From Planctomycetota bacterium (GTDB taxonomy: Bacteria > Planctomycetota > B15-G4 > SIAN01), in assembly GCA_016872815.1 (NCBI GenBank), contig VGYY01000003.1:1-47244 (forward strand): DNA of 47,244 nt, given 5' to 3'. Below are positions 19,828 through 22,304 of the stretch, piece by piece; the stretch's first letter is position 1, and the number at the start of each line of letters is the position of its first letter. The translations under genes and the position numbers were made by a program. Under the pieces are notes generated by a model, which had not been told where the DNA came from, did no database searches, and saw only the letters and a list, made by a program, of their open reading frames with translations.

Positions 19828-20904
19828 ATGGCACGACCCAGCATCGATGATCCCGAGGTCACGAGCGCGGAGCGCACGGCGCTCGAGGGCTACTGACAGC
19901 GTCGCAAGACGGGCCAGGCGTTGGCTTTGCGCTCGCGCATCGTCCTCCACCGCGCGGTCGGGCGCGCGGACCAAGATGTTGCGGACGAGCTTGGCGTCAG
20001 CCGCCTCACGGTCGGCAAGTGGCGTCGGCGCTTCCTCGTGAAGCACCTCGACGGCCTGCTCGACGAGCCGCGCTCGGGCACGCCGCGGAAGACCAAGGAC
20101 CATCAGATCGAGCGCGTGATTACGACCACGCTCGAAAGCCTGCCGAAAGATGCGACTCATTGGAGCACTCGCGGCCTCGCCAAGCAGCTCGGTCTCAGCC
20201 ACATGACCATCGCTCGCATCTGGCGTGCGTTCGGTCTCAAACCGCATCTCGCCGAGACGTTCAAGCTCTCGATCGATCCGCTGTTCATCGAGAAGGTCCG
20301 CGACATCGTCGGCCTCTGCCTGGCGCCGCCCGATCGCGCCCGCGTGCTCTGCGTCGATGAGAAATCGAAGATCCAGGCACTCGATCGCACGCAGCCCCTG
20401 CTTCCGATGCGCCCCGGGCAGGTAGAGCGACGCACTCACGACTACGTGCGTCACGGCACCACGTCGCTCTTCGCTGCACTCGACATCGCCACGGGCACCG
20501 TGATCGGCAAGTGCCGCCGCCGCCATCGCTCCAAGGAGTTCCGCGACTTCCTGGATCTGATCGACCGAGAAGTGCCGCCGAAGCTCGACGTGCACCTCGT
20601 GATCGACAACGCCAGCACCCACAAGACGCCGCTCATCCATCGCTGGCTGCTGCGCCATCCGCGGTTCCGACTGCACTTCACCCCAACCAGCTCGTTCTGG
20701 ATCAACCAGGTCGAACGCTTCTTCGTCACGCTCACCGAAAAACAGATCCGCAGAGGTGTCCATCGCAGCACCATCGCTCTCGAACAGGCCATCGAGAGCC
20801 ATCTCGCTACCTACAACCGCGACCCTCGGCCGTTTCGATGGACCAGGACCGCCGACCTCGGCCAGGACGTGTGGGGTGCTCGTGCGCCACGCGGATCGTG
20901 GTGA
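19828..20904 (+). pseudogene. IS630-family transposase with premature TGA
   Basis: From ATG 19828 the frame reads A-R-P-S-I-D-D-P-E-V-T-S-A-E-R-T-A-L-E-G-Y, meets TGA at 19894-19896, and continues in the same frame as [18 protein letters not shown], the typical IS630 N-terminus. Homologues usually carry Trp or another aromatic at the stop. After it come the helix-turn-helix ([17 protein letters not shown]), a second one ([14 protein letters not shown]) and the DDE catalytic core: V-L-C-V-D-E-K-S-K (first Asp), [11 protein letters not shown] (second Asp) and [13 protein letters not shown] (Glu). The C-terminus after W-T-R-T-A-D is atypical. A product started downstream (from about 19921) would lack 31 residues of the N-terminal domain. 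Confidence 0.85.
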
Positions 20905-21273: not shown

Positions 21274-21287
21274 AGCCGGAGGATGCG

Positions 21288-22304
21288 ATGCCGATCCCCA
21301 TCCGACTCACCGTTGCGCTGCTGTGCGCGATGTGCGCCTGCGGCGCGCCGCTCGCGGCGCAGGAAGGCGCACCGCACTCGCGCGCCGGCGCGCGCCCGCC
21401 GGGACCGCTCCCCATCCACGAGGAACCGGCGGAGCCCGGCATCGCCTGGTTCGGCACATGGTCGGAGGCGCTCGCGGAAGCCGAGCGCACCGGGCGTCCG
21501 CTGCTGTTCATGTCAGCCGCACCCCAGTGCTCGCGCGTACCCGGCGTGTGGTGACCGGGTTACCAGCAGACCGACAGGAGTTTCCTGTCGCAACCGCAAG
21601 TGGTGGCCGCCTCACGTGCGTTCGTGTGCGTGCGCCCGCAGACCTACGAGGACGCCGAGGAGGCCAAGATCCTGAGCTACGTCTTCGCTGGCCGCAGCGG
21701 GCTCGAGAACACCTCGTTCGCGCTGCTCGACCCTGCCGGCAAGAAGCTCACGGCGGGCTCACGCTCACCGAGCATGAGCTACGGTGAGGTCGAGCGCTTC
21801 GTTGCGGCACTCGACTCGACAGCGGCCAAGTACACCGAGAAGGCCAAGCCGATCGAGGCGCTGCCGACTCTGCGCAACCTCCGCCTCGCGCTCAACGTCG
21901 CCGCAGCGGACATGCGTCCGCTCGTCATCGTTCGCGGCAAGGACGAGGCTGCTGCGCAGACACTCGCGCGCAAGGTCGCCAAGCTCGCGTGGAGCGAGGA
22001 ACAGGTCGGCGAAGCGCACTATGTCGTGCTTCAAGAACCGATCGAGTTCGAAGCGCTTGCACCGGAACTCGGCACGAGCGTGGTGCAGCCCGATCCTTAC
22101 GGTCTCGGTGGCAAGGTGCTCGTCCACGTGAAGCCCGAGGCCGACGCGAAAGAGCTTGCCAGGGCACTCGTGAGCGGCTTCAAGCAGCACAAGGTCAAGG
22201 CCCGCGAGCACGACGCGCACGTGCGCGAGGCGCGCCGCCGCGGCATCGAGTGGGAAAGTCTGCTCCCCGTGTCCGATCCACAGGTGCCCGAGCGTCGAAA
22301 CTGA
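21288..22304 (+). CDS. Exported thioredoxin-like protein, probable selenoprotein (TGA = Sec89)
   Basis: GGAGG at 21278-21282 lies 5 bp before ATG 21288. The frame then gives a signal peptide (M-P-I-P-I-R-L-T-V-A-L-L-C-A-M) and a thioredoxin-like domain: G-I-A-W-F-G-T-W-S-E-A-L-A-E-A-E-R-T-G-R-P-L-L-F-M-S-A-A-P-Q-C81. It meets one in-frame TGA (21552-21554) in the context V-P-G-V-W-TGA-P-G-Y. The same frame stays open for 250 more codons with no shift and clear fold continuity (S-F-L-S-Q-P-Q-V-V-A-A-S-R-A-F-V-C-V-R, F-A-L-L-D-P-A-G-K-K-L). A perfect hairpin follows the TGA at bacterial SECIS distance, and the codons in it are unusually AGG-AGT. I therefore read the TGA as selenocysteine at residue 89, with Cys81 as a possible redox partner. 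The alternative is a nonsense mutation, which is credible because neighbours are pseudogenes. The 338-residue protein would be an extracytoplasmic redox enzyme. No selA/B/C/D gene is in the window. Confidence 0.65.
21572..21590 (+). promoter_or_regulatory. Candidate bacterial SECIS hairpin
   Basis: CGACAGG (21572-21578) pairs perfectly with CCTGTCG (21584-21590). The loop is AGTTT, or GTT if the A-T pair closes, so a G-U lies at the loop apex. The apical loop begins 24 nt after the TGA, inside the range known for bacterial SECIS elements, and it has a G in the first two loop positions as those elements require. It lies within the coding sequence, where the translated codons include AGG and AGT, both scarce in this genome. 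Confidence 0.6.

Follow-up and report, generated by a model that had tools for sequence, protein, structure and literature searches.

A thioredoxin-like gene with an in-frame TGA codon

The window analysed here, a stretch of 47,244 nucleotides, lies on contig C3 of a Planctomycetota assembly of 4.2 Mb in 470 contigs. A gene for a putative selenoprotein of 338 residues occupies positions 21288–22304 of the forward strand, which carries all of the features of the gene described below; its extent was read from the sequence and is consistent with full-length homologues. Translation would start at an ATG at 21288, preceded at a distance of 5 nt by a ribosome-binding site (GGAGG, 21278–21282), and the frame contains a single internal TGA at 21552–21554 (codon 89) before it closes at a TGA stop at 22302–22304. 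The start, ribosome-binding site, internal TGA, open frame and downstream hairpin all lie where the first-pass annotation of this DNA had placed them. The first 25 residues (MPIPIRLTVALLCAMCACGAPLAAQ, 21288–21362) form a probable signal peptide, which had also been claimed; this leader was judged by eye, and homologues carry similar hydrophobic leaders. As the gene itself terminates with TGA, this codon is also an ordinary stop in the organism.

The TGA codon is conserved throughout the family

We collected 111 homologous loci (86 distinct), mainly from Planctomycetota, of which 31 came from whole genomes and 80 from the GTDB collection, where 84,980 species genomes were scanned and the best 80 of 105 relatives were taken. 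Judged by title, most of these 80 loci come from Planctomycetota; others carry the label Verrucomicrobiota, Eremiobacterota, Actinomycetota or Proteobacteria. The codon at position 89 is TGA in all 111 loci (31/31 and 80/80), and neither Cys nor any other residue was found at this position in the 31 whole-genome loci and the best 80 of the 105 GTDB relatives. One of the two scan patterns held W-C-P-G and was expected to catch Cys forms; none appeared among the best 80 of 105. All of the profile matches that span the site have TGA, and the matches without it begin past the site or are partial. Position 89 thus reads as selenocysteine (TGA) throughout the homologues compared, which supports the Sec inferred in the first-pass annotation, and recurrence of the codon in more than 80 assemblies rules out a sequencing error.

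The coding sequence is conserved on both sides of the TGA across the homologues. Sampling 392 Planctomycetota genomes evenly, we found the family in 51 by protein search or 52 by profile search, about 13%. The window genome holds a paralogue on contig C68 that is 42% identical to the window protein, with an aligned TGA and an identical 18-nt hairpin. No relative was found in the viral contigs and plasmids searched.

A hairpin downstream of the TGA is under selection

The TGA is followed by a candidate SECIS hairpin at 21572–21590 (CGACAGG-AGUUU-CCUGUCG), in which the two arms of the stem, 21572–21578 and 21584–21590, pair perfectly over 7 bp, or 8 bp if an A-U pair closes the loop (AGUUU, 21579–21583). 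The hairpin starts 17 nt and its apical loop 24 nt past the UGA, with a G at loop position 2. This agrees with the perfect stem of 7–8 bp, with its loop 24 nt past the TGA, that had been described from the sequence. Folded alone, the hairpin has a free energy of -11.7 kcal/mol, and none of 200 shuffled sequences folds equally well; when the protein was held fixed and codons were redrawn from family usage, a stem of this length arose in 0.36% of trials. Both results disfavor a chance origin.

The published model of the bacterial SECIS element places the loop 16–37 nt past the UGA, with a G at loop position 1 or 2, a stem of 4–16 bp and a free energy of -7.5 kcal/mol or lower (PMC13188914). The window hairpin agrees with this model in every respect (24 nt, a loop of AGUUU or GUU, 7–8 bp and -11.7 kcal/mol), and the model is satisfied by 72 of the 86 distinct family members versus 4.1% of codon-redrawn controls.

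Codon choice in the stem region is also constrained. Of the distinct genes with Ser at the ninth position past the TGA, all 72 use AGT for it, and the Arg codon preceding that Ser is AGG in 50 of 52; elsewhere in the same genes these codons account for 8.4% of Ser and 6% of Arg, which bears out the rarity of AGG and AGT that had been remarked upon. When 31 sequences are aligned without gaps, 94.5% of the cells at the seven stem pairs are paired, and pairing falls to 56% or less once the 3' side is slid by one to three bases. In the same alignment both sides of a pair are altered in 19 cells versus 4.5 in shuffles, a signature of compensatory change, and the stem is preserved under peptides as different as DRSFLS, EESFFS, DQSLWS and ESGLLS. 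Comparison of the sequences indicates that selection acts on both the hairpin RNA and the protein. A scan of the window against Rfam returned nothing at gathering scores, and so lends the hairpin no support. A few loci (L034, L045 with L088/L102, L069 and L076) retain the TGA and have no clean standard SECIS hairpin; these perhaps use another SECIS class.

The host genome encodes the selenocysteine machinery

All four components of the selenocysteine pathway, selA, selB, selC and selD, are found in the window genome. The tRNA-Sec scores 76.9 bits and has the anticodon TCA, SelB scores 336 bits, SelA is encoded, and SelD is of the Sec type with the motif CAGUAAK. Across the phylum sample 49 of 51 carrier genomes encode SelB versus 186 of 341 non-carriers (Fisher p 7e-10, with relatedness not corrected for), as do six of six additional carrier genomes, four of which are labelled as other phyla. 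A genome of the same genus (G214) has neither SelB nor the selenoprotein family; this fits joint loss, yet the assembly is only 84% complete.

Other recognizable selenoprotein genes are present in the same genome. Contig C7 carries a member of the Trx7/PDZ selenoprotein family NF041199 (L006, 1432–2685) with the motif CERUPDC and a score of 357 bits, above the cut-off. A fused MsrB/MsrA gene on contig C33 (L005, 949–1971) has Sec at the MsrA active site (GGUFWG). On contig C90, an exported two-domain thioredoxin-like protein resembling TsoB/DsbD (L004, 1432–2217) has an in-frame TGA in the context DGUPPC; it passes no NCBIfam cut-off and is possibly another unnamed selenoprotein.

The conserved TGA, the covarying hairpin and the sel machinery support the earlier proposal of a selenoprotein with Sec at residue 89, and every refuting condition named with that proposal (another residue in homologues, missing machinery, a misread codon) was checked and came out in its favor. 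On this body of sequence evidence, we regard insertion of selenocysteine at this position as almost certain.

Predicted fold and active site

An AlphaFold2 model built on the 31-sequence alignment has a pLDDT of 92.5. When the whole model was submitted to Foldseek it matched two-domain fragments of PDI and QSOX1, and domain 1 alone matched DsbD-gamma, AGR2 and ERp18/19; a sequence search of the PDB gave matches at chance level only. Domain 1 (residues 52–185, 21441–21842) contains the active site, and its assignment as thioredoxin-like draws on the model, the fold matches and the Pfam family Thioredoxin_7 (PF13899), against which the window protein scores 20.8 bits (E 4e-4), below the gathering threshold of 27 bits, with relatives reaching E 1.4e-7. 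Moderate evidence, from the secondary structure of the model and the two-domain PDI and QSOX matches, points to a second thioredoxin-like domain at about residues 198–301 (21879–22190), which has no conserved redox pair.

With residue numbers given as alignment position plus 51, Pro79, Cys81, Gly86, Trp88, Sec89, Gly91, Ser101, Cys114, Arg116, Glu121, Glu125 and Asn141 are invariant in the 31 sequences, as are a few more residues downstream; in the larger set one weaker homologue (L123) has Ala instead of Gly91. The active-site motif is VPGxW-Sec-PG[KY], and together with Cys81 (21528–21530), eight residues upstream of the Sec, it gives a C-x7-U layout. A profile alignment to ERp18 from the PDB sequence search, a weak match that the fold also supports, pairs the Sec with the first Cys of WCGACK and the Lys/Tyr with the second. 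Because this alignment and the fold both place the Sec on the first Cys, Sec89 corresponds to the nucleophile of thioredoxin. The nucleophile lies at the N-terminus of helix 2 in the model, in the Foldseek matches and in the ERp18 alignment, and by this criterion the protein belongs to the thioredoxin-fold superfamily.

The classical CxxC or UxxC pair is absent from the 31-sequence alignment, which reads UPG[KY] at this point, and the segment that would hold the cis-Pro has no conserved Pro and reads L-x-N-[TS]. Since the usual resolving Cys is gone, Cys81 is the obvious replacement partner; in the weak ERp18 profile match it falls within a loop inserted directly before the Sec that ERp18 does not have. 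The alternative is Cys114 (21627–21629), which lies in a predicted beta strand. Cys81 had been put forward as a possible partner in the first-pass annotation and is invariant in 31 of 31 rows; the equally invariant Cys114 went unmentioned there.

Proposed mechanism and alternative readings

We consider it very probable, on the sequence evidence, that the window gene encodes a true bacterial selenoprotein, an exported thioredoxin-fold protein in which Sec89 would be resolved by Cys81. SelB with Sec-tRNA would decode the UGA at codon 89, the hairpin acting as the SECIS element, and for this step the sequence support is good. The product would then be exported; as the leaders of nearly all members look like signal peptides, we infer a probable site of action outside the cytoplasm. 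In the folded protein Sec89 is predicted to sit at the start of helix 2 of domain 1, where a CxxC motif would have its N-terminal, nucleophilic Cys. The selenol of Sec is ionized at neutral pH; in the periplasm, that of Sec89 could attack either a disulfide, in reduction or isomerization, or an oxidant of the peroxide type. Cys81 would resolve the mixed intermediate, freeing the product through a Sec89-Cys81 selenenylsulfide, and a periplasmic thiol system would subsequently reduce the Sec-Cys81 bond. That the protein is a thioredoxin-type redox enzyme is likely, and from the fold and the invariance of these residues we infer that the product is most likely a periplasmic Sec-dependent thiol/disulfide or peroxide oxidoreductase. 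The pairing of Cys81 with Sec89 is only modestly favored.

The missing resolving Cys and the missing conserved cis-Pro would be unusual in a disulfide exchange enzyme and count against one. They suit a different selenoprotein, a one-selenol enzyme of the glutaredoxin or peroxidase kind or a binder of a metal or metalloid, in which Sec89 would work alone or with Cys114, and Cys81 would be structural. The invariance of Cys114, which matches that of Cys81, is also consistent with this reading, as is the fact that many selenoproteins are redox- or metal-related (PMC13188914). However, Cys81 is itself invariant and sits in a loop inserted right before the Sec and absent in ERp18, which suits the role of partner, and we judge the one-selenol or metal-binding alternative unlikely, though it deserves to be kept in mind.

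Selenocysteine insertion itself faces much weaker competition. TGA is reassigned in some bacteria, and the codon could in principle be decoded as another amino acid, through a code change to Trp or Gly or through untargeted read-through. But the gene ends in TGA, a tRNA-Sec with the anticodon TCA accompanies SelA, SelB and SelD in the genome, and the site aligns with a catalytic Cys; a code change was rejected on the TGA stop and the Sec machinery, and decoding as another residue appears very improbable. Least probable of all is that the TGA is a genuine stop, whether a nonsense mutation or sequencing error that splits a thioredoxin-like gene or the boundary of two overlapping genes: a GTG at 21600 does start a 234-residue frame past the TGA, but a TGA shared by 111 loci across the phylum, with coding conservation on both sides, a covarying hairpin and the Sec machinery, practically refutes a split gene or pseudogene.

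A further possibility is that Sec is obligatory in this family. It is conceivable, although we hold this only tentatively, that there is no Cys orthologue, that Sec, SECIS and machinery have been selected together across the phylum, and that the C-x7-U site performs chemistry in which Cys could not replace Sec. Taken loosely, the thioredoxin superfamily does supply remote Cys relatives.

Relationship to known selenoprotein families

No curated model covers the window protein. Neither NCBIfam nor Pfam has a model that it matches at cut-off, the best NCBIfam matches among the 31 members being Trx7/PDZ (E 2.4e-5) and VPGUxxT type 2 (E 0.0013). A list of 119 selenoprotein families from 2026 (PMC13188914) contains no C-x7-U or WUPG motif, and the text of the motif had no match in the literature searched; a 2016 study lists selenoproteins of two planctomycetes in a supplement, and earlier notice of the family there is conceivable. 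The earlier suggestion that the protein may be new therefore stands within the family libraries and literature searched. Within the same bounds, it apparently represents a new family of thioredoxin-fold selenoproteins in bacteria, with its active-site residues in an unusual arrangement.

The nearest named families, VPGUxxT and Trx7/PDZ, are relatives of a different architecture. Like the window family, the VPGUxxT type 2 family (NF041383, OS_HP5) occurs in Planctomycetota and has an exported domain of the thioredoxin_7 kind, in which VPG precedes the active site and Sec takes the nucleophile position. It was rejected as a home for the window protein, whose score of 12 bits lies below the cut-off of 275. 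Its members read EVPGU-xx-C, keep the second Cys, have no Cys eight residues before the Sec and include Cys forms; they are fused to an MsrA-like domain that often has its own Sec, whereas the window family has no MsrA domain and its VPG does not directly precede the Sec. Four VPGUxxT type 2 loci (L136, L138, L139 and L146) have a second in-frame TGA in the MsrA-like domain (M[AST]UFWVG) and are double selenoproteins; one Sec is listed for the family (PMC13188914).

Trx7/PDZ (NF041199) likewise has a Thioredoxin_7 domain and Sec, and shows weak similarity to 15 of the 31 members (at best the E 2.4e-5 given above). It differs in its CxxU motif and its PDZ domains, and a true member, L006, is found elsewhere in the window genome; the window protein does not reach the cut-off of 300 bits and has no PDZ match, and this assignment was also rejected. 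DsbD-gamma, AGR2, ERp18/TXNDC12 and PDI resemble the window protein in fold, in extracytoplasmic location and in the first Cys of WCxxC, which aligns with the Sec. Unlike it, they use Cys and have no Cys-bearing insertion, and the active ones have the second Cys and the cis-Pro.

Searches for Cys/TGA pairs account for the discovery of most prokaryotic selenoproteins. If a family has no Cys relatives, such pair-based searches will miss it, and annotation cuts its genes in two. The selenoprotein A of glycine reductase, GrdA, is an unrelated protein that was long thought to have no Cys homologues (PMC1794560), as the present family seems to have none; those of GrdA have since been reported, and by the same account Cys homologues now seem to exist for every known selenoprotein (PMC12013277, 2025). 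If the present family truly has no Cys orthologues it would be an exception to that statement. The family is common in Planctomycetota and offers a new active-site layout, with a Cys eight residues before the Sec and no CxxC. It could also provide a direct test of why evolution keeps selenocysteine, since in nature the family appears to tolerate no exchange of Sec for Cys.

Phylogeny and genomic neighborhood

The neighborhoods of the 80 GTDB loci have no widely common partner gene, the commonest neighbor cluster occurring in 11 of 80, and give no pointer to a substrate. A tree of 89 proteins resolves two clades: one with WUPG-Y/F, to which the window gene belongs, and one with mostly WUPG-K that contains the paralogue. 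The other known carriers in the clade of the window gene belong to another family of Planctomycetota. This placement may reflect horizontal acquisition, differential loss or a contig assigned to the wrong bin; the conclusion on selenocysteine is unaffected by any of them. A gene for a DDE_3 transposase lies shortly upstream of the selenoprotein gene, at 19921–20904 of the window.
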